64,000 bases of DNA from Blastococcus saxobsidens (GTDB lineage Bacteria; Actinomycetota; Actinomycetes; Mycobacteriales; Geodermatophilaceae): positions 248,001 to 312,000 of the forward strand of contig NZ_JAAGWG010000002.1 of NCBI RefSeq assembly GCF_010682065.1. The letters are read 5' to 3'. Both the position numbers and the translations under genes were made by a program. This document shows positions 7,427 through 43,352 of the stretch, piece after piece (within the stretch, counting starts at the first letter, position 1; each line of letters opens with the position of its first letter). The notes below the pieces were generated by a model. The model searched no databases. It was not told the origin of the DNA and saw only the letters and a list, made by a program, of their open reading frames with translations.

Positions 7427-8500
7427 TCAGGGGTCGCCGAAACTGAGCGTCTCGACCATGCGGTCGAGCACCCCGACGTTGCGCGCGTAGTCGAACTGCG
7501 GCAGACCCACCGTGTCGACCACCAGGGTCCGTGGTGCCTCCGCTCCCCCACCGAGGTCGACCACGTAGCTGGTGGCCCGCACTCCCGCGGGCCAGAGACC
7601 CTCACCGACGGAGACCCGTTCGACGCGCACCGCCGAGCGACCGCCGACCGTGGTCGCGCGACGGCTGAGCTCGTCCCCCGGACCAGGGCCGGCCACCTGC
7701 TGGAACGGGGCCTGCTCCACCCGGGCGGTCACGGCACCGACCCGGGCATCGGTGTTCGGGGGCACCGTGAAGGGGTCCGGGGCGAACCGGGTGCACGCGG
7801 CGACCGTCTCCCCCGGGTTCGCCGACCACCCCTGCGGATACGCCAGCGAGAACCCGGCCGGGCTCTCGCAGCGCTGGGTGAGCGCCGCGGGGGTCGCGGG
7901 ATCCTCCGCGAGGACATCGACCACGATCCGCTGCGGGGAGTTCGCCGTCCCGACCGCGAACGGCCGCCGCCGGTCGGTCCCGGCGAAGAAGCTGTACGCG
8001 CCCTCGAAGAGGGTGTCCGCCACGAGCTCCTCCAGCACGGTGGCGTCGGCGATCCCCTGCCGCTCCGGCCCCTGCCAGCGCACCGCGCCGGCCTCCTCGT
8101 CGCCCGGCAGCGCGACGTTGGTCAGTGTGATGCCGAGGAACGCCTGCCCGGGCACCTCGACGGGGGCGCCCGACCCCTGGGCCCGCGGCTCGTCGACCCA
8201 GCCGACCTGCCAGCCGGCCGATCCCTCACCGGCGACCTCGAAGACGATCCGGTCGAAGCCGTCGTGCGCCCCGAGCCGCACGTCGGTGAGGGTCACCGGG
8301 CGACCGGCCCCGGCCGCGGCGGAGTCGGCGGTGGTCCCGTCGCCCACCGGTCGCAGCTCGTCGGGGTCGTCCCTCCCGGGGGCCGGGGACTGGCTCCCCG
8401 GGGTCCCGGTCGGGTCGGGCGCCGCGGCCGGTCCGCCGTCGCCGCCGCACGCGGTGAGGAGCAGAGCCGCACACACCCCTGCGGGGAAGAGACGCCACAC
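7427..8500 (-). CDS. Secreted lipoprotein with AMIN-like domain
   Basis: A 357-residue lipoprotein. The N terminus is a short signal peptide with lipobox LLLTACGG (lipidated Cys near residue 18), followed by a low-complexity Ala/Pro/Gly linker. An AMIN-like beta domain follows (about 65-215, containing GFDRIVFEV and QRIVVDV), then a second beta-rich domain to the end. AMIN domains target proteins to the cell wall or envelope, so this is probably a wall-associated protein of the outer membrane face. No enzymatic motif is visible. GTG start with AGGA upstream. Confidence 0.75.
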   Translation of the reverse strand: MWRLFPAGVCAALLLTACGGDGGPAAAPDPTGTPGSQSPAPGRDDPDELRPVGDGTTADSAAAGAGRPVTLTDVRLGAHDGFDRIVFEVAGEGSAGWQVGWVDEPRAQGSGAPVEVPGQAFLGITLTNVALPGDEEAGAVRWQGPERQGIADATVLEELVADTLFEGAYSFFAGTDRRRPFAVGTANSPQRIVVDVLAEDPATPAALTQRCESPAGFSLAYPQGWSANPGETVAACTRFAPDPFTVPPNTDARVGAVTARVEQAPFQQVAGPGPGDELSRRATTVGGRSAVRVERVSVGEGLWPAGVRATSYVVDLGGGAEAPRTLVVDTVGLPQFDYARNVGVLDRMVETLSFGDP

Positions 8501-8599
8501 GGTTCCTGCCTCGGTGTCGGGGTCCGGTCGTCCCCGTCCCCTAGCCCGTGCCCGACCCGTCCGAACCCGGGCGGGCCCGATGCCACCGGATCGTCACAC

Positions 8600-8613
8600 G
8601 GCCCGCGAGGGCC
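8600..8613 (-). terminator. Hairpin just after glnE stop
   Basis: GGCCC and GGGCC flank a 4-base loop directly beyond the glnE stop codon on the minus strand. It is short but very GC-rich and well placed. Confidence 0.4.
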
Positions 8614-8614
8614 C

Positions 8615-11600
8615 TCAGCCCTGGCCCGGCGGCGGCTGCCCGTAGAAGACCTGCTCCACGACCGACCGCGCGTGCCGGGTGGTGCGGCGGTAGTCGTCGA
8701 CGAACTGGCCCGGGTCCTGGTCCGGGCCGTACCCGCACGCCCGGGCCACGCCGGCCAGCTCCAGCCCCGGGCGCGGCAGCTGGTCGCTGGGGCGTCCCCG
8801 GACCAGGAAGATCGCGTTCCGGGCCGTGGTCGCCAGCGCCCAGGCCTCGCGGAGGGAGGCCGCCTGCTCCGCGTCGAGGTGCCCGGCCGCCGCCAGCGCG
8901 TCCAGCGCCGGGGCCGTGGCGGGCACCTGCAGCGCCTCGGACCCGGCGGCGTGCTGCAGCTGCAGCAGCTGGACGGTCCACTCGACGTCGGACAACCCAC
9001 CCCTGCCGAGCTTGGTGTGCGTCGCCGGGTCCGCCCCGCGGGGCAGCCGCTCCCGTTCCACCCGGGCCTTGATCCGGCGGATCTCGGCGACCTGGTCGGC
9101 GCTGAGCCCGGCAGCCGGGTACCGGATCGGGTCCACCAGCGAGACGAAGTCGGCGCCGAGCTGCTCGTCGCCGGCCACCGGCACCGCGCGCAGCAGCGCC
9201 TGCACCTCCCACACCGACACCCAGCGCTCGTAGTACTCCCGGAACGCCGAGAGGCTGCGCACCAGCGCACCCTGCCGGCCCTCGGGACGCAGGTCGGCGT
9301 CCACCTCGAAGGCGGGGTCCGGCCCGGGCTCGCCGAGCACCCGGCGCAGCGCATGGGCGACGGCGTTGGCCGCGGCCGCGGCCTTCGTCTCGTCCGCCCC
9401 CGGCCGGGCGCGGTGCACGAACAGCACGTCGGCGTCGGAGCCGAAGCCCATCTCCCCGCCACCCAGCCGGCCCATGCCGATGACCGCGAGGTCCATCGGC
9501 AGGTCGGCGACGTCGATCCGGGCCTCCCGCGCGTGCGCCCGCACGGCCACGTCCAACCCGGCCTGCAACGTGGCGACCGCGACGTCGGTGAGGGCGCGGC
9601 CGACCCGGTGCACGTCGAGCCGGCCGAGGAGGTCGGCCGCCGCGATCCGGAGCAGCTCCTGCCGCCGCAGGCCCCGGACCACGCGGATGCCCGCCTCCGG
9701 GTCCGGCGCGCGCCCGGCCGCCTGGCGCCACGCCTTGGCCAGTACCGCGGCCTCGCGCGGCTCGAGCTCGGCGTCGTCGGCGAGGATGCGCAGCGCCTCC
9801 GGAGTGCGGGTGAGCAGCGCGGCCACGTACTGGCTGGAGCCGAGCAGCTGGGCGAGCCGCTCGACCACCTGCCCCTCGTCGCGGAGCAGCCGCAGGTACC
9901 ACTGGTTGCCGCCGAGGGCCTCGCTGACCTGCCGGTAGGCGAGCAGGCCGGCATCCGGGTTCGGGCAGGAGGCGAAGGTCTGGAGCAGGACCGGCAGCAG
10001 GTACTTCTGCATCGACGCCGACCGCGACAGCCCGCCGGTCAGCGCGGTCATGTGCCGCAGCGCGCCGTCGGGGTCGGCGAACCCGAGGGCGCGCAGCCAG
10101 TCGCCGGCCGCCTTGGAGCCGAGCTGGAGCTGCTCCCCCGGCACCCGCGCGACCGCGGACAGCAGGGGCCGGTAGAAGAGCTTCTCGTGCAGCCTGCGCA
10201 CCTCGCGGGTGTGCAGCGCCAGCTCCGCGCGGAGCACGTCGACGGCGTCGCCGCGGTGGTCGGGCTTGTAGCCCAGCGAGCGGGCCAGCCAGCGCAACTG
10301 CTGCTCGTCGGTGGGCAGCAGGTGCGTGCGACGCAGCCGGAGCAGCTGGAGCCGGTGCTCCACGGTGCGCAGGAAGCGGTAGGAGGCGACCAGGGTCGCG
10401 GCGTCCTCGCGGCCGACGTAGCCCCCGGCCGACAGCGCCTGCAGCGCCGGCACGGTGCCGCCCAGCCGCAGGTTCGGGTCCACCCGCCCGTGCACCATCT
10501 GGAGCAGCTGCACGGCGAACTCGACGTCGCGCAGGCCGCCGCGTCCGAGCTTGAGCTCCCGCTCGGCCTGGGCCGGGGGGATGTTGGCCTCGACCCGGCG
10601 GCGCATGGCCTGCACCTGGCCGACGAAGCCGGGCCGGTCGCCGGCCTTCCACACCAGCGGCCACAGCGCCTCGACGTAGGACCGGCCCAGATCGGGGTCA
10701 CCGGCGACCGGTCGCATCTTCAGCAGCGCCTGGAACTCCCAGGTGTCGGCCCACTGCTCGTAGTACGCGGTGTGTCCGGCGACGGTGCGCACCAGCGCCC
10801 CGCGCTTGCCCTCCGGGCGCAGCGCCGCGTCGACCTCCCACGCCGCCTCGTGGCAGATCCGCATGAGGGCTGCGGCCACGCGCGTGGCGCTGCTCAGCGC
10901 GGCGCCCTCGGCGTCCGTGGGGTCGACCGCCTCGGCCACGAACACGACGTCGACGTCGCTGACGTAGTTCAGCTCCCGGCCGCCGGTCTTGCCCAGGGCG
11001 ATGACGCTGAGCCGGCAGGCGGCTGCGTCGGCCGGCTGCTCGGCGACGGCGACGGCCAGGCCGGCGGTGAGCACGGCACCGGCGATGTCGGCCAGCTCGA
11101 CGGCGACCTCCTCCGCCGGCACGCCCTCGCCCAGGTCGCGCCCGGCGAGCGACAGGATCGCCCGGCGGTAGGCCAGCCGGAGCGCGGCCACGCGTTCGGG
11201 CCCGGCGTCCGGCGCCCCCTTGCCGAGCCGCACGCCCCACGGCGGGTCGTCCGGATCCGCGCCCACCGCCGCCAGCATCTGCCGCTCCAGCGCGTTCGGC
11301 GTCGGCCGCCAGATGCCGTGCCGGTCGTCGTCGAGCACCTGCCAGTCGAGCGGGTGCGCGGCCAGGTGGTCGGCCAGGCCGGAGCTGGCACCCAGGACCG
11401 ACACGAGCCGTCCGCGCAGGTGGCCGGGCCCGCGGAGCCTGGCGAGCAGCGCCGCCGCGGCGCCGCCGTCCGGGTCCTCGGCGTCCAGCGCCTCGACCAG
11501 CCGGTGCAGCGAGCGGACGGCGAGGTCCGGGTCACCGGCGCGGGCGAGCGCCGCCACGACCGGGCCGGCCTCCGGGTCGGCGGGCTCGTTGCGCTCCAGG

Positions 11601-33388: not shown

Positions 33389-34348
33389 CTATCGGATCAG
33401 TCGGAGGATGGAGGCGCCCAGCTGAGGGGCGTCGGGGCTGTACTCCCAGTCGTCGGACAGCTCGACGAAGCGGGTGAAGTGGCCGGTGATGCAGCGGACG
33501 TTGCCGTTGCACGGCGCCGGGGAGGACCTGAACTGGCCGGTGAAGGAGTAGCCGGTCAGCCGGAAGGCCGCGTAACCGTGGACGCGGTACCAGCCGCCAC
33601 TGCCCGTTCCGCCGGCCTCGTCGTAGATCGGCAGCAGCACCGTCTGACCCAGGTAGGAGGCGAAGTCCGCCGGCGTGCAGCCACCGGACGGTGACTGGCC
33701 GGGGTCTGACTGGAGGATGCCGTCGATCTGGCTGGCGGTCCCGCAGCCGGCCGAGCCGGTCCGCACGAATCCGAAGCCACCGGGGATGTCGTTGCCCGAC
33801 TGCGGGTGGCACTCCGGGGCGTCGTCGGTCTTGGTCAGCCTGAGGAACTGCGGCTTCTCGTCGTTCGGGATGCCCCCGCCGGTCTGCTTCTCGAACGCGC
33901 ACCAGGAGAAGGCGAGCGGCAGCACCGCGGTCCCCTGGCTGGGCGCCCCCCAGCCGACGGTGGCCGTGGCGGTGACCTGGCTGGAGTCGTGCCCGATCAC
34001 GGGGGCGAACCAGTGCTCCTTGGGCGCGCCACCGGTGACGGTGACGCTGAGCGGGTCGCTGCTGAGGACCGGCTGGCCGGCCGTGCCGGTGGGGTCGTTG
34101 AGGGTGATCAGCTGCTGCGCCGTCGCCAGCATGTCGCCGCAGTTGCCACGCGAGCAGTCCTGGGCGACGGCGATGGCAGCGGCATCGGCCGCCACCTGGA
34201 GTCGGGCCCGTTCGGCGTAGAGGGCACCGAGGTCGACGGCGATGGCCGCGAACCCCAGCATGGGGACCATCAGCAGCGCGAGGACGACCGCGGAGGCGCC
34301 GCGCTCCCCGGCCAGCCGCGCTCGGACGCCGGCGGTCAGCCGTTGCAT
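33389..34348 (-). CDS. tadG: TadG-like pilus-associated protein
   Basis: A 319-residue protein with an N-terminal pilin-like hydrophobic helix preceded by RGASAVVLALLM, as in TadE/TadG pseudopilins and Tad_N domains. A long extracellular part of about 270 residues has eight or so cysteines (CSRGNCGD, FSWCAFE, APCNGNVRCITG) that probably form disulfides. It is thought to be a minor pilin or wall-linked part of the pilus. ATG start; overlaps tadE by 13 bases. Confidence 0.82.
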   Translation of the reverse strand: MQRLTAGVRARLAGERGASAVVLALLMVPMLGFAAIAVDLGALYAERARLQVAADAAAIAVAQDCSRGNCGDMLATAQQLITLNDPTGTAGQPVLSSDPLSVTVTGGAPKEHWFAPVIGHDSSQVTATATVGWGAPSQGTAVLPLAFSWCAFEKQTGGGIPNDEKPQFLRLTKTDDAPECHPQSGNDIPGGFGFVRTGSAGCGTASQIDGILQSDPGQSPSGGCTPADFASYLGQTVLLPIYDEAGGTGSGGWYRVHGYAAFRLTGYSFTGQFRSSPAPCNGNVRCITGHFTRFVELSDDWEYSPDAPQLGASILRLIR

Positions 34349-34746
34349 CGCATGACCCCCGAACCGGTGAGTTCGATCCCTGTGCCGAAGAAGCCGGTCA
34401 GGTACGGCTTGGAATAGGTGATGGTGAGGCGGACGGCGGTGTCGCCGGCGCCGGTGGTGGGGCAGGTCTCCGCGGTGCCGCCGACGATGACGATGTCGAT
34501 CTGGGCGTCGGTGATCGCCGGATTCAGCGAGGCTGCGGCCTGGCGGACGACGGCTCGCGCGTCCGCCGGGTCGTTGCGCAGGGCCATCGCCCGCACCCCC
34601 TCACGGGCGGCGGCGGAGAGCGTGCCCTGGACCTGGAAGGCGTGGCCGAACTCGACGATGCCGATGACCAGCGTGATCAGCAGCGGCACGATGAAGGCGA
34701 ACTCGACCGCCGTCGCCCCCCGCTGGTCGCGCAGACGTCTCCTCAT
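34336..34746 (-). CDS. tadE: TadE-like minor pilin
   Basis: A 136-residue TadE family protein: a short basic leader, then RGATAVEFAFIVPLLITLVI, the TadE helix with a type IV-like glutamate, then an extracellular tail with two cysteines. TadE proteins are processed pseudopilins of the Tad system. First gene of the assembly operon; the ATG follows a modest AGGG. It is separated from the flp pilin gene by a 15-bp stem terminator. Confidence 0.88.
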   Translation of the reverse strand: MRRRLRDQRGATAVEFAFIVPLLITLVIGIVEFGHAFQVQGTLSAAAREGVRAMALRNDPADARAVVRQAAASLNPAITDAQIDIVIVGGTAETCPTTGAGDTAVRLTITYSKPYLTGFFGTGIELTGSGVMRCNG

Positions 34747-34772
34747 CCCTGGTCACCGCCCCTCCTCGTGCA

Positions 34773-34809
34773 GCGGCGCAGCGGCCCGGGAGGAGGGCCG
34801 CTGCGCCGC
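34773..34809 (-). terminator. 15-bp hairpin between flp pilin gene and Tad operon
   Basis: GCGGCGCAGCGGCCC (34773-34787) pairs perfectly with GGGCCGCTGCGCCGC (34795-34809) around a 7-base loop. Its position lets a pilin-only transcript end here while some read-through feeds tadE onward. Confidence 0.7.
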
Positions 34810-34838
34810 ATCGCCACGTCGTACGCAGCAGCGAGTGA

Positions 34839-35075
34839 TCAGCCGCCGGTGGTCGTGGTGGTGGTGGTGCCACCGACGGCCGGCAGCTTGCCCTCGACGT
34901 CGGAGAAGAGGTCGCTCAGCCCGCCACCGAGGGTGGTCACGGCGACGATGATGGCGACGGCGATCAGGCCGACCATGAGGCCGTACTCGACGGCGGTCGC
35001 GCCCTTCTCGTCACGGCGCAGGCGGTCCTGGGCGAACGCGACGAAGCTGGCGATGGTGGCGTAGGCGTTGATCAC
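34839..35075 (-). CDS. flp: Flp family type IVb pilin
   Basis: A 78-residue major pilin. A short basic leader (DRLRRDEKG) ends at the prepilin peptidase site after Gly 25; the mature protein begins ATAVEYGLM with Glu at position 5 and a Tyr next to it, the Flp signature. One hydrophobic helix follows, then a tail of consecutive Thr residues before a final GG. The start is GTG 35075, with AGGGAG six bases upstream; the longer frame has no support. It stands alone upstream of the assembly operon and should be highly expressed. Confidence 0.9.
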   Translation of the reverse strand: MINAYATIASFVAFAQDRLRRDEKGATAVEYGLMVGLIAVAIIVAVTTLGGGLSDLFSDVEGKLPAVGGTTTTTTTGG

Positions 35076-35261
35076 GTGTACTCCCTGAGATGTCGGCCGT
35101 CGGGCAGGATCGGGTGATCCGGCCTCTGCGGCTGCTGGGGGAGGTTGTGAGGGCCGGCTCTGGGCTGCTTGAGGCTTCTTCACCCGGTTCACGGACACGG
35201 GCCCGCCGTTCAGGTGACGCTGCACAGCCCGATGTGACTGCGCGTGAGCAGATCGGCCGGA

Positions 35262-36014
35262 TCAGCCGGGTCCGGCACTGCTCCAGGCGACCGCCACGGC
35301 GGCCCCGAGCAGCATCGCCGGGCCGAACGGGAGCTGCGAGCGCAGGCCGATGCGGCGCGCGGCGAGCAGGAGCAGGGCCAGGACCGCCTGCACGACGAAG
35401 CCGGCCGCGGCCCCGAGCAGCACCGCGCCCCAGCCGAGCCACCCCAGCGGCAGACCGATGAGGCCGGCCAACTTGACGTCCCCCATGCCCAGGGAGCGCG
35501 GGGAGATCAGCGCCATGACCAGGAAGACGGCGAAGAGCAGCGCCGCACCGAGCACGGCGCGCAGCAGCTGCTCCCCCGACCCCTCGGCCACCGCGGCCAG
35601 GACGAGCAGAGCGGCGGTGATCCCGGCAGCCGGCGCGATGACGCGGTTGGGCAGCAGCCGGTGCCGGAGGTCGATGACGGTCAGGAGCACACCGGCGCCG
35701 GTGACGGCGAGGAAGGGGGGCAGCTCCCACGCCGCGCCGAAGCGGAGCGCGACGAGGGCGAACAGCGCCGCCGTCGCCAGTTCCAGGAACGGGGTCGGCA
35801 CCGCCCAGCGGGCGCGGGGCGTGTCGGTGCCGTCCCACGGGAACGCCCCGGCGGCCCGGTTGACCGCGGCGCCGACCAGCAGGCCGAGCACGGCGGCGAG
35901 CGCGACGGCGAGGGCGGCGGCTGCCGTCACCGGTGGCCCCGCGGACCGACGTGCCTCACGGCGCACACCCTCGCACAGCGGGTCACCGCTGCCGGGCAGC
36001 GCGGCGCCGGCCAT
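35262..36014 (-). CDS. cpaA: Prepilin peptidase CpaA/TadV
   Basis: An A24 family aspartic prepilin peptidase of 250 residues (or 222 from GTG 35930) with six or seven membrane segments. The two catalytic aspartates are in TVIDLRHRLLPNR and GMGDVKLAG. It cleaves the leader of Flp and TadE/G pilins at the cytoplasmic face. The N-terminal Cys-rich methyltransferase domain of PilD is absent, as expected in the Tad type. ATG 36014 has GGAG ten bases upstream, while GTG 35930 gives the tighter family N terminus; the start is uncertain. Confidence 0.88.
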   Translation of the reverse strand: MAGAALPGSGDPLCEGVRREARRSAGPPVTAAAALAVALAAVLGLLVGAAVNRAAGAFPWDGTDTPRARWAVPTPFLELATAALFALVALRFGAAWELPPFLAVTGAGVLLTVIDLRHRLLPNRVIAPAAGITAALLVLAAVAEGSGEQLLRAVLGAALLFAVFLVMALISPRSLGMGDVKLAGLIGLPLGWLGWGAVLLGAAAGFVVQAVLALLLLAARRIGLRSQLPFGPAMLLGAAVAVAWSSAGPG

Positions 36015-36381
36015 CCGGGCCCGTCTCCGGGGTTGTCACCGATCTCGCGGCCACGACGGCCTCTCGGGCCGTCCGACCAGGCGACGACCCGTTCCCGGAG
36101 CGGCTCGCGTCGGGCTACCGGATCGAACGCGCCGCCGGCGACGCCGCCGGTCCGGCCGTCTCCGCAGGGCTCCGCTCGCAGACCGGTGGCCTGGCAGGCG
36201 GCGGTCCGCAACGGACGGCCATGCTCGCTCGGTCGAACCAGTCGGCGCGCGGCGTCCTGGCGCTGCCGGACCGGCCTCGGGGCTGCGGCGCCGGACCGGC
36301 CGTCGGAGTGGGAGCGCGGGTCGGACGGCCGTCCGGCCAGGTCCGCGCACCGGCCGGGGTCACGGGCCGGTGCGCGGACGC
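36015..36381. other. Gene-free spacer upstream of cpaA
   Basis: About 370 bases with open frames in several phases but no ribosome site, family match or conserved start. I see nothing functional except the possible cpaA promoter. Confidence 0.4.
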
Positions 36382-36421
36382 GGAAGCGCCGGGCAGGAGC
36401 GAACCCCTGCCCGGCGCTTCC
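36382..36421 (-). terminator. 16-bp hairpin after surface protein gene
   Basis: GGAAGCGCCGGGCAGG (36382-36397) pairs perfectly with CCTGCCCGGCGCTTCC (36406-36421), loop 8 bases, 15 bases past the stop. One of the strongest terminators in the window. Confidence 0.75.
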
Positions 36422-36436
36422 GTGCGTACGCCTCGA

Positions 36437-37210
36437 TCAGGCCTGGTCGGCCTGACGACGGCGGTAGGCGACGGCACCGGCGGCAGCGGCACCGACCGCA
36501 GCCAGGGCGCCGACGCCGATCGCGGCCTGGTTCTCCGTGCCACTGGTGGCACCGGCACCGGTCTCGGCACCGCCGGCGGGCATGGTGCCCATCTGGGCGG
36601 CCTTCAGCGGGCCACAGGCGGCGGGGGCGGTGGCCTCCATGGGCAGCGACGGGTCGAGGTCGCTCTTGATGTCGCCGTCGTAGGCGCCCGAGCCGTCCTT
36701 GTCGATGCCGTGCACGACGAGCACAGCGGTGCCGGCGGCGAAGGCCTTCTGCACGTCCTCGGTCACCGAGAAGGTGCGCTCGTAGGTGTACGAGCCGCCC
36801 TCGGCGGTCGGGAAGCGGTCGACGGCCAGGCCGCTGTCCGGGCTGGTGTCGCCCTCGGTGGTCAGCGACGTGCCGATGGCGCCGTAGTACTTGGCGGCCT
36901 CGGTGACGCTGACGAAGCCGTCCTTGTCCGCGTCGTCGGCCAGGTCGTTGGTCGGGCAGGTGCCCATGGCGCCGATGTGGAAGTGCTGCGCGTGCGGGGA
37001 GCCGGCCAGCAGGCCCGAGGCCTTCACCGTGACGGTGGCCTGGTCGCCCTTGAGGGTCACCATGCCGGTGCCGCTGACGCCGGAGGAGTTCACCGCCCCG
37101 AGGGAGGCCTGGTAGCTGCCGTCGTGGTCGGCGAGTGCGGTCCCCATGGTGAGCAGCGGGAACGCCGCGGCTGCGATGGCGACGGTCGGAAGGGCGAATG
37201 CCTTGCGCAT
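36437..37210 (-). CDS. Surface-anchored CHRD-like protein with EF-hand-type loop
   Basis: A 257-residue exported protein: signal peptide (about 1-28, ending GTALADHDG), a beta-rich domain like CHRD/superoxide-type folds with HFHIGAMGTCP, an EF-hand-like loop DDADKDGFVSVTEA, and a second acidic loop GIDKDGSGAYDGD. The C terminus has a membrane helix after a Gly/Ala linker and ends in RRRQADQA, so it stays on the cell surface, without an LPXTG. The role is unknown; calcium binding is an inference. ATG 37210 has AGGAG five bases upstream. Confidence 0.75.
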   Translation of the reverse strand: MRKAFALPTVAIAAAAFPLLTMGTALADHDGSYQASLGAVNSSGVSGTGMVTLKGDQATVTVKASGLLAGSPHAQHFHIGAMGTCPTNDLADDADKDGFVSVTEAAKYYGAIGTSLTTEGDTSPDSGLAVDRFPTAEGGSYTYERTFSVTEDVQKAFAAGTAVLVVHGIDKDGSGAYDGDIKSDLDPSLPMEATAPAACGPLKAAQMGTMPAGGAETGAGATSGTENQAAIGVGALAAVGAAAAGAVAYRRRQADQA

Positions 37211-37496
37211 GTGAACTCCTGTGTCTGGGAGGTTGTCCTCCCGGGCGGGAGGGGTCTTCGGGAGCCCGGTCGGTTGCGGCTCCCGTTGGGGCCCGGCGCA
37301 GTGCTCGCGCCGGTCGCGCAGCGGGTCGGGGAGGACCCTGCGTAGCGGCGCGGACCCGAACCGTCGGTCCGGGGTGCGCCAGGCCACATCAGGCCTTCGC
37401 ATCCGATGCCCGTGTCGGTTCATTTCGAACGCGTACAACCTGATCGCGTCCATGACGATTTGATGACACGCCGCCCCGACCTGCGACGCGGGAGCA
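37211..37496. other. Spacer upstream of the surface protein gene
   Basis: 286 bases with no credible gene. The surface-protein promoter should lie here. The spacer ends at the left copy of the rnpB 3' repeat. Confidence 0.4.
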
Positions 37497-37526
37497 GGCG
37501 ACGGACGAGTCGGCCTGCACGCCGGG
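37497..37526. repeat. Left copy of rnpB 3'-end direct repeat (att-like)
   Basis: 30 bases match 39405-39434, the 3' end of the RNase P RNA gene, at 29 of 30 positions in the same orientation; the first 21 are identical and the one mismatch is at 37518. Identity ends beyond both sides. The two copies are 1,908 bp apart. Confidence 0.8.
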
Positions 37527-37584
37527 CACGGTTCACCGGCGCCGGAGCCGACCGGGAGCTGCCCAGCAAGGATGCCCGAGTTCC

Positions 37585-37594
37585 CTTATATAAG
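37585..37594. promoter_or_regulatory. CTTATATAAG palindrome, candidate ArsR-type operator
   Basis: A perfect 10-bp AT-rich palindrome, very unusual in this GC content, overlapping the expected -35 region of the ArsR-type gene. It is well placed for autorepression. Confidence 0.55.
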
Positions 37595-37604
37595 CGGGAG
37601 CCGA

Positions 37605-37610
37605 TAGGAT
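37605..37610 (+). promoter_or_regulatory. TAGGAT -10 box of the arsR-type operon
   Basis: TAGGAT matches TANNNT and ends 7 bases before the TTG start, which has no well-placed Shine-Dalgarno, suggesting a leaderless message. Confidence 0.55.
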
Positions 37611-37617
37611 CCCGGAC

Positions 37618-38025
37618 TTGTCCGCGTTCGACATCCTCGGCGATCCGGTGCGCCGGCGAATACTGGAGCTGCTGGTCGACGGCGAGCAGAGCTCCGGCGC
37701 GATCACGGACGTGATCCGGGCCGAGTTCGGACTCTCCCAGCCGGGTGTCTCACAGCATCTGCGCGTGCTGCGAGACAGCGGGTTCACGTCGGTGCGACCC
37801 GAGGGTGCTCGCCGGTTCTACGCCGTCGAGCCCGGGCCGCTGAGCGAGGTCGACGCCTGGTTGGACCGGTTTCGCCGGTTGTGGCAACAGCGCCTCGACG
37901 CCCTGGAGACCGAACTGGCCCGGGGCAGGCGTGCAGCTCGGACACCGGCTGGCGGGGAGCCCACTCGACCGACCGACCCCGGCAGCGATGCGGACGAGAC
38001 CGATCCAGCAGCGAAGGGACCCTGA
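37618..38025 (+). CDS. ArsR family transcriptional regulator
   Basis: A 135-residue winged-helix repressor, with DILGDPVRRRILELL at the start and recognition region LSQPGVSQHLRVLRDSGF, then a helical dimer part and a disordered C-terminal tail. No metal-binding cysteines are visible, as is usual for ArsR proteins paired with SRPBCC proteins. The TTG start fits the family N terminus, has no in-frame upstream alternative, and lies 7 bases after a -10 box. The next gene starts one base after its stop. It probably represses this operon through the palindrome upstream. Confidence 0.88.
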   Translation: MSAFDILGDPVRRRILELLVDGEQSSGAITDVIRAEFGLSQPGVSQHLRVLRDSGFTSVRPEGARRFYAVEPGPLSEVDAWLDRFRRLWQQRLDALETELARGRRAARTPAGGEPTRPTDPGSDADETDPAAKGP

Positions 38026-38026
38026 C

Positions 38027-38671
38027 GTGAAGGACCTACTGGACGAACTGGCCGCCGCGCACCGGGCGATGGGAAAGGGCAGCGTGCCCGCCGGCGAGGC
38101 CTACACCATCGAGCTGCGGCGGCGATACGAAGCGCAGATCGACGACGTCTGGGACGCCGTCACCATCCCCGAGCGGCTGCAGCGCTGGTTGAGCCCGGTC
38201 ACCGGGGATCTGCGGCTCGGCGGGACGTTCGAGCTGGGCAGTGGCGAGCACGGCGAGATCCTCCGGTGCGAGCCGCCGCGCCTGCTGAAGGTGTCCTGGC
38301 TCTACGGGCCGGACGCCGATGCCTGGGCCGGCACGAGCGAGGTGGAGGTGCGCCTGTTCCCGGGCCCGACCGGCGGCACCGACGTCGACCTGATCCACGC
38401 AGCGGTCCTCGGCGAGCCCCTCTTCCCGACCTACGGCCCCGGTGCCGGCGGCGTCGGCTGGGACCTGTTCCTCCTCGCCCTGGCCCAGCTGTTGGCCGGT
38501 GGCGAGACGGCCGAGCACGAGGAGGTCCAGAAGTCGCCCGAGGGGCAGGAGTTCATCCGGCGCAGCGCCGCGGCCTGGGGCAGGGCTCACCTGGCCGCCG
38601 GTGGCGAACCGGAGCACGTCGCGGCCGCAGTCGAGGCCACCACCAGGTTCTACGCGCCCGACCCGACCTGA
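38027..38671 (+). CDS. SRPBCC (AHSA1-type) protein paired with ArsR
   Basis: A 214-residue START/Bet v1-like domain protein of the AHSA1 group: RRRYEAQIDDVWDAVTIPER, LRLGGTFELGSG and LLKVSWLYG form the lipid/ligand-binding fold (about 25-150), followed by a helical C terminus. Such proteins bind hydrophobic ligands and, when paired with ArsR regulators, are often stress- or toxin-linked; the substrate is unknown. GTG start with AGGGA upstream, one base after the arsR-type stop. Confidence 0.85.
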   Translation: MKDLLDELAAAHRAMGKGSVPAGEAYTIELRRRYEAQIDDVWDAVTIPERLQRWLSPVTGDLRLGGTFELGSGEHGEILRCEPPRLLKVSWLYGPDADAWAGTSEVEVRLFPGPTGGTDVDLIHAAVLGEPLFPTYGPGAGGVGWDLFLLALAQLLAGGETAEHEEVQKSPEGQEFIRRSAAAWGRAHLAAGGEPEHVAAAVEATTRFYAPDPT

Positions 38672-38756
38672 ATCACCGCTGCGGTCGGCCTCCGTCGCGG
38701 AGCAGGACGAGAAGCACGACAGGCGAGTTGTCCCCCAGCCAGGAGGAATGCGCGTC

Positions 38757-39248
38757 ATGAGGTTCACCAACTCGATCGAGATCGCCCTGGCGCGAGAGGG
38801 AGTGGCCCAGCTGCTCGCCGACCCCGCACACCTGCCGAAGTGGCTGCGAGGAATGGTGCTGCACGAGCCCGTGGACGGGATGCACGGACATCTCGGCACC
38901 AGGTCGCGTGTCGTGATGCAGTCGGGGAAGCAGACGATGGAGTGCACCGAGACGATCACACGCCGGGATCCGGCCGACCTGCAGACGATCCCCACAGAGG
39001 TCGTCGTTCACTTCGACCGAGAGATCGTCGGCCCGGGCATGTGGAGCGTCGTGCGCGATCGGCTGACCGAAGCCGATCCAGGAACGACGCTCTGGGAGAG
39101 CGAGAGCGAGTACCGGTTCACCGGTCTGCTGATGCGGCTGGTGGGGCTGCTCATGCCCAGCGCCTTCCGCAAGCAGTCGCAACAGCACATGCGGGATTTC
39201 AAGGCGTTCGCCGAGCAGGGGAAGGATGTCCGCGACGTGAGGGGGTGA
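38757..39248 (+). CDS. SRPBCC family protein
   Basis: A 163-residue polyketide cyclase/dehydrase-like SRPBCC protein (FTNSIEIALAREGVAQLLAD, with EVVVHFDREIVGPGMWSVV in the barrel). A ligand-binding or coenzyme-Q-like role is possible but unproven. ATG 38757 lies ten bases after AGGAGG; ATG 38748 directly abuts it and is less likely. The 85-base gap after the previous gene leaves operon membership open. It is the last gene before rnpB, inside the repeat-bounded segment. Confidence 0.8.
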   Translation: MRFTNSIEIALAREGVAQLLADPAHLPKWLRGMVLHEPVDGMHGHLGTRSRVVMQSGKQTMECTETITRRDPADLQTIPTEVVVHFDREIVGPGMWSVVRDRLTEADPGTTLWESESEYRFTGLLMRLVGLLMPSAFRKQSQQHMRDFKAFAEQGKDVRDVRG

Positions 39249-39403
39249 TCTGCCGCGATCCGCAACGAGGGACTCGACCTGCAGCCATCCCTGGCCTGGC
39301 TCCGACGACCGGACGAGGGTCGCCGTGGACTCCGTTCTCGGCCGAGTGGTGAACCCTGTGCGGACCGACGCCGCCCTCTGAGCGCAATCCCCGGGTCACA
39401 GGC

Positions 39404-39819
39404 GGGCGACGGACGAGTCGGCCTGTACGCCGGGTTCTGTCCACGGGTGCCTTGCGGCCTCCCGATGGGCGGTCATCCATCTAGGCCTGCCGTTGCCGGC
39501 AGGCTCGAGCGGTCTACCCGCAGGCTCGGGCGGGCCGCCCTCGAACGCCTGCGCGGGACGACGGCGAACCGCCGTCCCTTCTTGACCTAGCTCCGGGTGG
39601 GGTTTACCGAGCCACACCGGTCACCCGGTGTGCGGTGGTCTCTTACACCGCCGTTTCACCCTTACCAGTGCGAGCACTGGCGGTCTGTTCTCTGTGGCAC
39701 TGTCCCGCGGGTCGCCCCGGGTCGCTGTTGACGACCACCCTGCCCTGTGGAGCCCGGACGTTCCTCGGCGGCGAGGTCTCCCCCGCCGACGCGACCGCCC
39801 AGCCGACTCGTCCGTCGTG
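39404..39819 (-). ncRNA. rnpB: RNase P RNA (type A)
   Basis: The catalytic RNA of RNase P, which matures tRNA 5' ends. Minus-strand landmarks are GAGGAACGTCCGGGCTCC (P4 5' strand), GAACAGA and CCAGTGC, GGGTGAAA, GGTAAACCC, GGCCTAGATGGATGACC, and ACAGAACCCGGCGTACAGG (P4 3' strand and end). The ends pair as P1: GACGGACGAGTCGGC with GCCGACTCGTCCGTC. Its 3' end is duplicated at 37497-37526. Confidence 0.95.
39405..39434. repeat. Right copy of rnpB 3'-end direct repeat (within rnpB)
   Basis: The 3' strand of P1 and adjacent bases of rnpB, repeated 1,908 bp away with one mismatch. Confidence 0.8.
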
Positions 39820-39825
39820 CCGGTG

Positions 39826-39831
39826 AGTCTA
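39826..39831 (-). promoter_or_regulatory. rnpB -10 box
   Basis: TAGACT on the minus strand, 6 bases before the RNA 5' end, fits TANNNT. The -35 is weak. Confidence 0.55.
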
Positions 39832-39958
39832 GGGGTTCACGGCGACGGCCCGGACACTCGTCGTCCGCCGGGTCCGGCCGGCCGGGACCGCTGCCCCCAT
39901 GGGGTGAGCACCCCGCCCCCGGGTTCACCGCCGGCCCGCCACGGCCGATCACGACGAC

Positions 39959-42223
39959 ATGCAGGCTGCCCTGCGCACCCGGCTGCTGCCCGGCGCGCCC
40001 GTGATCACGACAACGATCGTCGTCGTGGCGGCAGCTCTTCTGCTCGCTGCCGGCCAGGGACGGGTCGACGCCGTGTCCGCCACCCCGACCACCGGGCCGT
40101 GGCGGCTGCTGCTGATGGGCGCCCTGCACGGCGGCCTGCTCACCGTCCTGTTCTGGCGGGCCCGCCAGGTCGCCCACGAGCGCACGGTGTGGAGCCGGAT
40201 CGCCGCGGGGGCCGCGATCATCGCCGGCGCCGTGCCGCTGGCCGTCCTGCTGGGCCTGTCGCCGGACACCCGCGACGCGGCCGTCGCGCTCACGCTGTGG
40301 GCGCCGGTCGCAGCCTTCCCGCTGGTCTACGGCGGCCTGGTCCGCTGGAACCGGTTCAGCACGAACCTCGCCGACCCCAACGACACCCTCAACGGCGCGT
40401 CCGCCGTCCTGGCCGTCGTCGCGCTGGTCACCCTCGTCCTCCAGCTCGACAGCGGCTCCGCGCTGCCGACGTCACCGACGGGGCCGCTGCCGGTGGTCGC
40501 CGGCTTCGCGGTCGAGTTCGTCATCCTTGGCACCGTCGCCACCCTCCCCTTCCTGGGGAACATGGGGCGCGATCCCCGCACCTGGCTGGTCCTCGGGTCC
40601 TTCGGCGTCTCCTTCGCCGGTGACACGGCCACCCTGGTGTCCGGCGCCCGGCCCGGCACCTGGGCCTGGGTCGTCGAGCCGATCGCGGTGGCCTGCCTCG
40701 CCCTCGCCGCCGTCCTGCGGCCGGGTCGCGCCGAGCCCCAGCCGGCCGACCCGACGGCCTCCACCATCGGCGCCTTCGTCGTCATCCTCGCCTCCACCGG
40801 CGTCCTCCTCGTGGCCGCCCTGCACGGCGTCGGTGGGCCCACCACCTGGTGCGCGGCGCTGGCCGCGACCGGTTCCGGCGTGCGGCTGCTGGTCAACGTC
40901 CGGGAGCTGGCCGTCCTCGCGGTCACCCGCCGGGAGGCGCTGACCGACGAGCTGACCGGTCTGGCCAACCGCCGCGCCATGCTGCGCCGGATGGACGAGC
41001 TGGCGGGCGAGGGCACACCGCTGGCCCTGGCGCTCCTCGACCTGGACAAGTTCAAGGACGTCAACGACGCCCTCGGGCACGCCGCCGGTGACCACCTGCT
41101 GCGCATGGTGGCCACCCGCCTGGAGACCGTCCTGCGGCCCGGTGACCTGCTGGCCCGCCTGGGCGGCGACGAGTTCGCCGTCCTCGCGCCGCTGGACTCC
41201 CCGCTCGGCGACTCCGCCCTCGCACTGGGCCGCCGGCTCCACGACCGGCTGGCCGAGCCGTTCCCCATCGAGGGGATGGTCATCCACTCGGCGGCCAGCG
41301 TCGGGCTCACCGTGTCCCCCGGGGGCGAGGGATCGGCGTCACCGACCCAGCTGCTCCGTGAGGCCGACGTCGCCATGTACGACGCCAAGCGCACCGCGTC
41401 CGGCCCCGCCCTGTACGACAGCGCCCGGCACGCCGGCAGCAGCGGGAACCTGGCGCTGGTGGCCGACCTGCGGGCGGCCCTGACCGGCGACGAGCTCGTG
41501 CTGCACCACCAGCCGCAGCTCGACGTCACCACCGGACGTCCCGTCGGCGTCGAGGCCCTGGTCCGGTGGCAGCACCCCGTCCGCGGGCTGCTCGGTCCCG
41601 GCGAGTTCCTCCCGCTGGCCGAGGTGCACGGCCTGATGGGCACCCTGACCGAGGTGGTCCTCGGCCGGGCCGTCGCCCAGGCGGCGGAGTGGCACCGGCG
41701 GGGCCTGGACCTGCGGATGTCGGTCAACCTGTCGGCCAGCAACCTGCTGGACGCCGGGCTGCCGGGCCGCGTCGCGGAGCTGCTTGCCGCGCACGGGCTG
41801 CCGGCCGAGCGCCTGATCCTCGAGGTGACCGAGAGCGTTCTGCTGACCGATCCCGACCGCAGCATCGCCGTCGTGCGCCGGCTGGCCGACCTCGGCGCGG
41901 GCGTCAGCATCGACGACTTCGGCACCGGCTACTCGTCGCTGGCCTACCTCCGCGACCTGCCGGTGGCCGAGCTCAAGCTCGACCGCTCCTTCACCGCCGA
42001 CCTGCTGACCGACGAGCGCACCGAGGCGATCGTGTCCAGCACCGTGGAGCTCGCCCACCGTCTCGGCCTGCGGGTGGTGGCCGAGGGCGTCGAGCAGCCG
42101 GAGACGTTCTCCTACCTCCAGGCGCTCGGCTGCGACCTCAGCCAGGGCTTCCTGCACTCCCGCCCGCTGCCGGCCGAGCAGTTCGAGGAATGGCTCACCC
42201 GCTCCCCCGCCGTCGCCCGCTGA
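39959..42223 (+). CDS. Membrane GGDEF-EAL c-di-GMP protein
   Basis: 754 residues: about nine N-terminal hydrophobic segments (about 12-310), a GGDEF domain (about 325-485) with LTDELTGLANRRAML and intact GGDEF in LARLGGDEFAVL, and an EAL domain (about 500-745) with VGVEALVRWQHP, MSVNLSASNL, IDDFGTGYSSLAYL and VVAEGVE. Both the synthase and phosphodiesterase motifs appear complete, so it may do either, depending on its membrane sensor. The ATG start lies 140 bases beyond rnpB; the Shine-Dalgarno is weak. Confidence 0.92.
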   Translation: MQAALRTRLLPGAPVITTTIVVVAAALLLAAGQGRVDAVSATPTTGPWRLLLMGALHGGLLTVLFWRARQVAHERTVWSRIAAGAAIIAGAVPLAVLLGLSPDTRDAAVALTLWAPVAAFPLVYGGLVRWNRFSTNLADPNDTLNGASAVLAVVALVTLVLQLDSGSALPTSPTGPLPVVAGFAVEFVILGTVATLPFLGNMGRDPRTWLVLGSFGVSFAGDTATLVSGARPGTWAWVVEPIAVACLALAAVLRPGRAEPQPADPTASTIGAFVVILASTGVLLVAALHGVGGPTTWCAALAATGSGVRLLVNVRELAVLAVTRREALTDELTGLANRRAMLRRMDELAGEGTPLALALLDLDKFKDVNDALGHAAGDHLLRMVATRLETVLRPGDLLARLGGDEFAVLAPLDSPLGDSALALGRRLHDRLAEPFPIEGMVIHSAASVGLTVSPGGEGSASPTQLLREADVAMYDAKRTASGPALYDSARHAGSSGNLALVADLRAALTGDELVLHHQPQLDVTTGRPVGVEALVRWQHPVRGLLGPGEFLPLAEVHGLMGTLTEVVLGRAVAQAAEWHRRGLDLRMSVNLSASNLLDAGLPGRVAELLAAHGLPAERLILEVTESVLLTDPDRSIAVVRRLADLGAGVSIDDFGTGYSSLAYLRDLPVAELKLDRSFTADLLTDERTEAIVSSTVELAHRLGLRVVAEGVEQPETFSYLQALGCDLSQGFLHSRPLPAEQFEEWLTRSPAVAR

Positions 42224-42240
42224 CCCCCGCCGGCGTCAGC
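42219..42240. terminator. Hairpin between GGDEF-EAL and PIG-L genes
   Basis: GCTGAC and GTCAGC pair over 6 bp around a 10-base loop spanning the two convergent stops. Modest but well placed. Confidence 0.4.
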
Positions 42241-42955
42241 CCCAGAAGAGCCGGAAGCCGACCCGCCGCCGGCCGTCGTCGGTGACGGTCGACATGTCCA
42301 CCACCTGCCGCGCCTGGTCCTCGACCGGCTCGTCCGACAGCAGCTCCAGGTATCGGCGGTGCTCGACCAGCGACGCGACGGCCGCCTCGACGGCGTCGCT
42401 CACGTCGACCTCGTGCGGCGGGTCGACCAGCTCGCTCACCGCGATGTACTGCACGCCGCGCCACGGCTCCTCGGCCAGGTCCGGGAAGATCCACTCGTTC
42501 GACGCGTCGGCCACGGCGTCGACGACCGACTGGCCCAGGGCGCGGTGGTCGGCGGAGTTGACGTGGGCCGGGGAGACGCCCGGCGGGGTCCAGGTCGCGC
42601 CGAAGTAGCCGGTGACCACCAGTTCCGGGCGGTGCCGCCGGATCGCCCCCGCGAGGTCGCGCCGCAGCTCCGGTCCGGCCACCAGGGTGCCGTCCCGGTG
42701 GTCGAGGAACTCCACCTCGGTGACACCGACGACGGCGGCCGAGCGGCGCTCCTCCTCCTCGCGGATCGGGCCGGCCTCGGCCGGTGGCACGCCCGCCATC
42801 CCGGCTTCGCCGCGGGTGGCGAGCAGGTAGTGCACCTCCTTGCCGGCGGCGGTCCAGACCGCGACGGCGGCCGCGAGGCCGTACTCGATGTCGTCGGGGT
42901 GGGCCGCCACGACCAGGGCGCGCTGCCAGTCGTCGGGCATGGGGGTGGGAGGCAT
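42236..42955 (-). CDS. PIG-L family deacetylase
   Basis: A 239-residue LmbE/PIG-L zinc hydrolase with AHPDDIEYGLAAAV holding the metal-binding His-Asp-Asp, LATRGEAGMAG, HRDGTL and the His of VNSADHRALG. The family deacetylates N-acetyl sugars, for example in mycothiol synthesis and detoxification (MshB, Mca), but also in natural-product pathways. It lacks Mca's length and no mycothiol gene is adjacent. ATG 42955 has a weak -10 (CAGACT) 8 bases upstream and no Shine-Dalgarno. Confidence 0.88.
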   Translation of the reverse strand: MPPTPMPDDWQRALVVAAHPDDIEYGLAAAVAVWTAAGKEVHYLLATRGEAGMAGVPPAEAGPIREEEERRSAAVVGVTEVEFLDHRDGTLVAGPELRRDLAGAIRRHRPELVVTGYFGATWTPPGVSPAHVNSADHRALGQSVVDAVADASNEWIFPDLAEEPWRGVQYIAVSELVDPPHEVDVSDAVEAAVASLVEHRRYLELLSDEPVEDQARQVVDMSTVTDDGRRRVGFRLFWG

Positions 42956-42992
42956 GACCGGAGTCTGCCGCCGATCCCGTCCGCGCAGGAGG

Positions 42993-43352
42993 TCAGCGCC
43001 CGCGGGCCACCCGCAGCGCGGCCGCGATCATCGGCACCTGGAGCGGCAGCCGCGCCGCGGCGATCGCCAGCGGTACCGGCTTGCCACGCACGACCCGGAA
43101 CATGTGCAGGTGCGCCGGCACGAAGGCCAGCAGCAGGGCGACCGTGCCCCAGCCGCCCGCCCGGCGGGTGGCCGGCGCGGCCAGCAGGGCCGCGGTGCCG
43201 ATCTCGGCCACCCCGCTGGCCAGCACCCAGGTCCGTGCGTCGCCCAGCTCCGGCGGCACCAGCCACTCGTAGGTGCGCGGCCGCACCAGGTGCAGGACAC
43301 CGGAGCCGCCCAGGAGCGCCCCCAGCCACGTCGCGTTCGCCGGCTTCCGCAT
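42993..43352 (-). CDS. DoxX-like small membrane protein
   Basis: A 119-residue protein with four hydrophobic segments of the DoxX/YphA type (GSGVLHLVRPRTYEWLVP, ASGVAEIGTAALLAAP, and a later HLHMFRVV). Family members include quinone-linked and unknown membrane proteins; function is not known. The ATG start is preceded by TACGGT 6 bases upstream and no Shine-Dalgarno, consistent with a leaderless transcript. It may share a transcript with the PIG-L gene 37 bases downstream. Confidence 0.78.
   Translation of the reverse strand: MRKPANATWLGALLGGSGVLHLVRPRTYEWLVPPELGDARTWVLASGVAEIGTAALLAAPATRRAGGWGTVALLLAFVPAHLHMFRVVRGKPVPLAIAAARLPLQVPMIAAALRVARGR

Follow-up and report, generated by a model that had tools for sequence, protein, structure and literature searches.

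Among RNA genes, those for transfer RNA and tmRNA are the familiar landing sites of integrative elements. Islands in these genes have an intact RNA gene at one end and a displaced direct copy of its 3′ fragment at the other, with an integrase beside the RNA gene, and empty sites are known for them. For islands found by TIGER/Islander, the available text of one study gives shares of 33.8% in tRNA or tmRNA genes, 43.4% in protein-coding genes and 22.8% in intergenic sequence, and it does not name rnpB, the RNase P RNA gene (PMC12424338). The available part of a second source does not treat rnpB as an integration site (PMC12884075). Leads from streptococci, Mycoplasma and cyanophages were dropped, as rnpB serves there just as a marker, reference or promoter in the accessible portions of the papers (PMC8776855, PMC2705793, PMC3541175, PMC2516327, PMC5462765, PMC2824730). 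Landing at the 3′ end of an RNA gene is a known kind of event; rnpB as an integration site, with an integrase clade dedicated to it, was not found in the literature searched, which did not extend to the TIGER method paper and database, and an earlier description is possible.

The window analyzed here is a stretch of 64,000 nucleotides from Blastococcus saxobsidens, whose genome (4.09 Mb, 91% complete) falls into one genus group with two genomes designated G012 and G016. In this window, a small segment beside rnpB lies between two direct copies of the rnpB 3′ end. The segment (37500-39434) is very probably an eroded rnpB-site integrative element, which now survives as a probably immobile cargo operon next to an intact rnpB.

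The direct repeat at the 3′ end of rnpB

The repeat and its surroundings comprise the following features:

36437..37210, minus strand: chromosomal neighbour gene, directly after rnpB in four empty-site relatives (locus comparison)
37500..37526, plus strand: displaced att core, far end, with one substitution, T to C (pattern search, repeat finder, locus comparison)
39408..39434, plus strand: att core, rnpB end, 27 nt (relatives with larger elements have this 27-mer both at rnpB and at the displaced end)
39410..39810, minus strand: complete RNase P RNA gene (rnpB, class A), whose 3′ end is the integration target (Rfam RF00010, 277.5 bits, gathering score 100)

An earlier, sequence-only reading of this DNA had described a copy of the rnpB 3′ end at 37497-37526, in the same orientation as 39405-39434 and equal to it at 29 of 30 bases, and both the coordinates and the identity hold. 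A repeat finder returns the pair as 37494-37543 and 39402-39451, with 84% identity over 50 nt. The copies are 1.9 kb apart, and the displaced one lies downstream of rnpB. With up to three mismatches allowed, the 27-nt core matches just these two positions in the entire genome, and the reversed control matches none. The displaced core carries its T to C change near the centre of a CGGC-CTGTAC-GCCG dyad, possibly the region of strand exchange. The segment had also been described as richer in A+T than its surroundings, which is true but mild: G+C is 68-73% across 37500-39499 (500-base steps), compared to 71-79% in the rest of 34000-42999.

The empty site in relatives

The relatives were represented by one genome per species, and the window's species by one genome. 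It had been proposed that close relatives be checked for an empty site, and four of them (G004, G007, G008 and G009) have one. In these four genomes, the homologue of the neighbour gene lies about 290–310 bp from the rnpB-end core, and in the window the gene is 290 bp from the left copy. When the window is aligned with the four relatives, the chromosomal flank enters the core in all five sequences; beyond the core, the empty-site relatives continue into rnpB, whereas the window continues into other sequence. G008 is 85.6% identical to the window to the left of the copy, compared to 97.9% on the rnpB side. The neighbour gene is not directly downstream of rnpB in 15 of the 19 genus loci fetched, so gene order here is variable, and four genomes carry the evidence for the empty site.

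The 1.9 kb has been inserted at the 3′ end of rnpB, with a complete RNA gene, a displaced direct 3′ fragment and an empty site in relatives, as in elements that use the 3′ ends of structural RNAs. Relatives that carry the same three genes without the left repeat had been named as a finding that would speak against mobility. The genes do occur in three relatives, but away from rnpB, which is the harmless form of this case.

The integrase relic and the arms

Next to the two cores, the segment retains traces of an element:

37527..37546, plus strand: left-arm remnant beside the displaced core (identical to G016 and G092 at 11 of the first 13 bases and at 15 of the first 20)
39277..39381, plus strand: 3′ end of a tyrosine integrase gene, 34 codons and stop, remainder missing (blastn to the G016 integrase end and core)
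39391..39399, plus strand: arm site on the integrase side, degenerate, reading CCGGGTCAC where relatives have GCAGGTCAG; 8 bp separate it from the core (3 of 9 positions mismatched)

The sequence-only reading had found no integrase in the segment. This is correct for intact genes, of which there are none, but the truncated 3′ end of such a gene stands at 39277-39381. By blastn, 39277-39440 matches the integrase end and core of G016 at 85% (E 5e-48), and G012, at 85% over the same positions, is among the two genomes nearest to the window in the integrase tail. The relic frame, with its stop at 39379-39381, ends in SHPWPGSDDRTRVAVDSVLGRVVNPVRTDAAL, and its G016 counterpart ends in SHLWPDSDDRTRVAVDSVLRRVADSVRTDASL. 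Since only this truncated end is present, the segment is filed as a remnant and not as a working member.

At the far end, 37497-37539 is 93% identical to the displaced end of G016. In the first 13 bases past the displaced core, the window shares 11 with G016 and G092, 10 with G012, and 4–9 with the other 15 of 18 arms; a random 13-mer agrees at 11 or more positions with a frequency of 4e-5. The left arm is recognizable over only about 20 nt. A second arm motif, CTGACCTGC, is absent from the window at offset 49, where the cargo cassette begins, and its best match, with 2 mismatches at offset 32, is of a quality found in about a quarter of random stretches. Of the features that mark the clade of P0001 (the G016 integrase, used as query for relatives), the window thus has the core and the integrase tail, with arm sites that are degenerate or missing.

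Short direct repeats can in general have other origins, and the left copy could in principle have arisen without a mobile element, when the 3′ end of rnpB underwent a plain segmental duplication or gene conversion. The empty sites with both flanks conserved and the element-type sequence inside both copies, integrase relic included, argue against this, and its probability is close to nil. A chance repeat or simple duplication was likewise ruled out by the two-place pattern search, the empty site and the integrase tail.

Elements at rnpB within the family

The family survey covered 112 genomes, the window's included. The sequence-only reading had called rnpB a rare target and had suggested a search of other genomes for copies of its 3′ end. 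For this family, rarity does not hold. Two cores with at most one mismatch lie on one contig in 18 of the 112 genomes, again including the window's, on the same strand in all 18 and 1.9–76 kb apart, and an integrase tail is joined to a core in at least 32 of the 112. In G104, the same-strand pair of cores is not on the contig with the rnpB copy.

In the larger elements, the displaced copy is mostly followed by element sequence (CACAGT, AACGGT, GACGGA) and not by the body of rnpB. In a few genomes (G037; L216, L225 and the L220/L235 pair), the displaced copy runs on like rnpB for some bases beyond the core, so the core length varies. Many larger elements have a PF00589 integrase match just inside the rnpB-side copy. 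These integrases are mostly about 364 aa long and usually end 28–29 bp before the core, with 45 bp in G047 and 164 bp in G090. Of the 112 genomes, 12 have an unbroken P0001-like integrase no more than 250 bp from a core. An unbroken integrase in G046, about 1 kb from the core, is not counted among these 12.

A tail was counted when its match started no later than base 73 of the 159-base query and reached base 159; by this count, 11 of the 12 genomes with an unbroken integrase fall within the 32 tail genomes, and G090 does not. At least 21 of the 112 genomes, the window's among them, have a tail on the core with no unbroken integrase within 250 bp, a group that includes large broken copies (G043, G054, G053, G059 and G111). 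Relics like that of the window are therefore common. The shorter DNA tail matches are those of G039, G050, G056 and G062, and a protein-level search of these four gave no P0001 match beside the core. The integrase tail in G047 and G060 stands at a copy that has no rnpB body after it.

Arms were compared in ten unbroken elements with both ends, and the motif was derived from these same elements. Past the displaced core, CTGACCTGC stands at offset 49 with at most two mismatches in 8 of the 10; G047 has three mismatches there, and G090 has the motif at 60. On the integrase side, GCAGGTCAG lies 8–9 bp from the core (20 bp in G047) with at most two mismatches. Recognizable arms are also kept by the relics in G023, G048 and G111, which goes against a simple rule.

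Elements beyond the family

Relatives of P0001 were also located at 79 loci in named genomes. At 48 of the 79, an rnpB-end motif follows the integrase match on its 3′ side by no more than 1.5 kb, usually by 37–50 bp, where the motif allows up to 5 of 27 mismatches and broken integrase copies are counted. The genera and species concerned include Blastococcus, Geodermatophilus, Modestobacter, Nocardioides, Pimelobacter, Aeromicrobium, Actinomycetospora, Mycobacterium aurum, Actinotalea and Microbacterium. At another 9 loci, the motif is on the other strand, about 200–330 bp before the integrase start, and the integrase points away from rnpB; it lies further 3′ at 7 loci, and 15 have neither arrangement. 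Rfam places a complete RNase P RNA gene at all 8 integrase loci given to it, 4.7 kb off in L099.

Among 16 carrier genomes, the rnpB 3′ end is present at least twice in 15 and once in the remaining one. The copies share contig and strand in 13 of the 16, at distances of 3–29 kb (15.7 kb in M. aurum), and the pattern search across the 16 genomes gave 34 matches compared to 3 for the reversed control. Ahead of rnpB, GCAGGTCAG is exact in 5 of 16 loci and has one or two changes in 5 more. A quick tree was built from 57 of the 79 loci, the others lacking a fitting open frame, together with one outgroup, and several of its long branches are unsure. In this tree, all rnpB-placed rows (31, 7 and 6) fall into one 52-row group (SH-aLRT 92), which also holds 8 rows without rnpB placement. 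One integrase clade targets the rnpB 3′ end in several families of Actinomycetota.

Gene content of full-size relatives

In G012, the element encodes a 937-aa protein that matches TrwC (E 6.7e-54) and MobF above cut-off. By ORF comparison only, G016, G029 and G110 have ORFs in the same place with N-termini similar to this relaxase, and the frame in G016 looks split. The ORF lists of the other 8 of 12 elements, that of G092 included, contain no relaxase-type ORF. No MobF relaxase was found among the window's three scanned proteins, which fill most of the segment. G016 has, in addition, a 77-aa HTH_17 protein near the integrase, which is Xis-like by position. A scan of 10 cargo proteins returned PDC-S39 in G012 and G110, AbiEii in G110, and a caspase-like match with a weak OloB match in G029; judging from these ten, some of the cargo of full-size elements looks defence-related.

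Phage carriers of the integrase were sought and rejected, as the phage integrases are only distantly related (at most 37% identity among the matching records listed, 20 of 173) and the exact 27-mer is absent from viral_contigs. A search for plasmid carriers gave no match at E 1e-40. Two records labelled as phage, MT836823 and MT835553, have an rnpB-like end; they contain a complete RNase P RNA gene with no significant P0001 match within about 4 kb and were taken as bacterial DNA. A match to Gordonia phage Wojtek (85%, E 0.07) lies inside a hypothetical gene and was judged to be due to chance.

The segment could also be the remnant of a prophage and not of a mobilizable element. The distant phage integrases fit such an origin, as does the presence of a relaxase-type ORF in only 4 of the 12 listed elements, and some phages may use the rnpB site. 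However, G012, one of the two genomes nearest in the integrase tail, has a MobF relaxase, and this, together with the missing 27-mer in viral_contigs, makes a prophage very unlikely.

The cargo operon

The genes of the segment are of the three kinds that the sequence-only reading had assigned to them:

37585..39258, plus strand: cargo cassette ArsR-SRPBCC-SRPBCC (same order, with DNA blocks 84–91% identical, in G007, G022 and G103)
37585..37594, no strand assigned: CTTATATAAG palindrome upstream of arsR, possible operator (comparison of arsR upstream rows)
37618..38025, plus strand: ArsR-type regulator with HTH, 135 aa (Pfam HTH_20 and HTH_5; NF033788 above cut-off)
38027..38671, plus strand: SRPBCC protein, AHSA1 type, 214 aa (PF08327, scanned with upstream start)
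38757..39248, plus strand: SRPBCC protein, Polyketide_cyc2 type, 163 aa (PF10604)

The palindrome, exact or with at most two changes, precedes 11 of the 28 arsR rows compared, including that of the window, and may be the arsR operator. The regulator has matches to the ArsR fold; because its translation contains no cysteine, it is unlikely to act as a thiol metal sensor.

The trio lies away from rnpB in the three relatives that have it: G022 has it on another contig, G007 at a distance of 665 kb, and G103 at about 37 kb, on the side upstream of rnpB. The operon thus exists independently of the element, and it was therefore either carried by the element or came to lie in it. Mobility genes were sought in 9 ORFs around the G007 trio, where nothing beyond a GntR/FCD regulator and a single weak match to SnoaL came up. 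At E 1e-15, the window's genome has only the rnpB copy of the cargo, and none of the other rnpB elements examined contained the trio.

Origin and present state of the segment

The sequence-only reading favoured site-specific insertion, and this is supported by the four empty sites, the larger integrase-bearing elements at the same site, and the integrase and left-arm relics inside the segment. The observed parts of the explanation are the duplicated core, the empty site of relatives, the integrase tail, and the larger elements with the same integrase at the same site. From the MobF relaxase of some relatives, we infer that the ancestor was mobile. Its tyrosine integrase would have recombined the 27-nt core with the rnpB 3′ end. 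The element, with the cargo presumably already in it, would have supplied a new rnpB 3′ end and displaced the original one to the far side, where it is now the left copy. The element DNA that separated the cargo operon from the 34 final integrase codons would then have largely disappeared, and all but about 20 nt of the left arm would have been replaced or lost, although the order of these losses is a reconstruction. The outcome would be an ArsR-SRPBCC-SRPBCC operon beside an intact rnpB, probably immobile. With integrase and relaxase lost and arm sites degenerate or missing, the window copy is most likely a dead relic with one cargo operon, and its sequence argues against an ability to excise or transfer.

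Three origins had been offered for the segment: a remnant, cargo moved in trans, or a new class of small element. The first fits best. The other two are disfavoured because the arms are degenerate or missing, the candidate helper in the same genome is only 53% identical and lies beside what reads as another gene, and the cargo is unseen at the other rnpB loci examined. A non-autonomous mini-element, in which a cargo operon between two att cores moves by means of the integrases of other rnpB elements in trans, must be weighed against the same facts. Both cores are kept in the window, and related integrases are common in the family. Moreover, two other short rnpB segments retain an integrase tail and a displaced copy, namely those of G048 (about 1.0 kb, with both arm motifs at 1 mismatch each) and G059 (about 2.4 kb). 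However, the integrase-side arm of the window has 3 of 9 mismatches, its other arm is missing at offset 49, and its displaced core is substituted near the dyad centre, whose role is presumed. Other relics keep integrase ends of about 28 to more than 140 codons, some of them broken, as erosion would give. The best P0001 match found elsewhere in the window's 91%-complete genome is just 53% identical (contig C5; E limit 1e-60; 18 of 23 candidates scored). This C5 integrase was rejected as a helper, as the DNA after its stop, which we take to be a TadA/CpaF-like ATPase gene, points to a probable other target. A mini-element is thus highly improbable. If such mini-elements (two cores, an integrase-tail arm and one operon) did exist, single operons would gather by way of them at the RNase P RNA gene.

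Comparison with known systems

An eroded rnpB-site element remains the preferred reading, and elements of this kind explain small odd segments beside rnpB such as that of the window. They also provide candidate integrase/att pairs aimed at a site that is generally retained in bacteria with RNase P RNA. The rnpB 3′ end, which belongs to an essential ribozyme RNA, is worth adding to the targets of island finders.

The cargo is of the same kind as ArsR-SRPBCC (AHSA1) operons. Relatives of the first SRPBCC protein occur in 35 of the 112 family genomes (E 1e-15), and an ArsR match is close by at 28 of the 30 such loci examined. What sets the window apart is the close three-gene version, found at only 3 of the 30 loci besides the window.

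Integrative mobilizable elements of the MobF type are represented by G012, which combines a TrwC/MobF relaxase with an integrase of the P0001 clade, and the small HTH_17 protein near the G016 integrase, Xis-like by position, adds to the likeness. In contrast, the window copy lacks a relaxase, and of the integrase only the tail is left.

There is also a resemblance to the tRNA and tmRNA islands of the Islander/TIGER type, which share the RNA-gene geometry, the adjoining tyrosine integrase in complete members, and the empty sites. The rnpB-site elements differ from these islands in their target, which is the RNase P RNA gene.

The segment and its candidate operator

The cargo of the rnpB segment begins with arsR, and a short palindrome lies upstream of this gene.

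37585-37594, palindrome CTTATATAAG, upstream of arsR

Among the 28 arsR rows compared, this sequence precedes arsR in 11, either exactly or with no more than two changes, which makes it a possible ArsR operator.

Apart from the window's segment, the strongest candidate for a mini-element is a 1.0 kb segment at rnpB in another genome of the family.

L062 (G048), about 7924-8936, 1.0 kb rnpB segment

It retains an integrase tail and both arm motifs, each with one mismatch, together with a displaced core (the second copy of the rnpB 3′ end) that has three mismatches, and it contains a 188-aa ORF.

Chromosomal surroundings

To the left of the segment, the neighbouring protein (window 36437-37210) has a GVDTG sorting domain (NF058571) at its C terminus. 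Further left, window 34336-36014 encodes a Peptidase_A24 prepilin peptidase, and the ORFs near it look like Tad/Flp pilus parts.

39959-42223, GGDEF-EAL protein gene, between rnpB and the PIG-L gene

The order rnpB, GGDEF-EAL, PIG-L is common to the window, G010, G012, G014, and G017. Because the GGDEF-EAL gene does not occupy this position in other genus loci (e.g., G001-G004), the upstream side of rnpB is variable too.

Related integrases and other layouts

The window's own genome encodes a relative of the rnpB integrase elsewhere.

L189 (contig C5), 4233-5321, integrase, 53% identical to the rnpB integrase

The adjoining gene reads as a TadA/CpaF-type ATPase. Integrases 53–55% identical to the rnpB integrase occur in nine family genomes among the matches listed, and such an ATPase gene may be their common protein-coding target.

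A different layout is found at rnpB itself in nine loci, where the integrase gene is directed away from rnpB and its start lies ~200–330 bp from the 3′ end of that RNA gene.

L108, L110, L113, L119, L120, L122, L123, L125, L133, away-pointing integrase near rnpB

Mycolicibacterium is represented among these loci.
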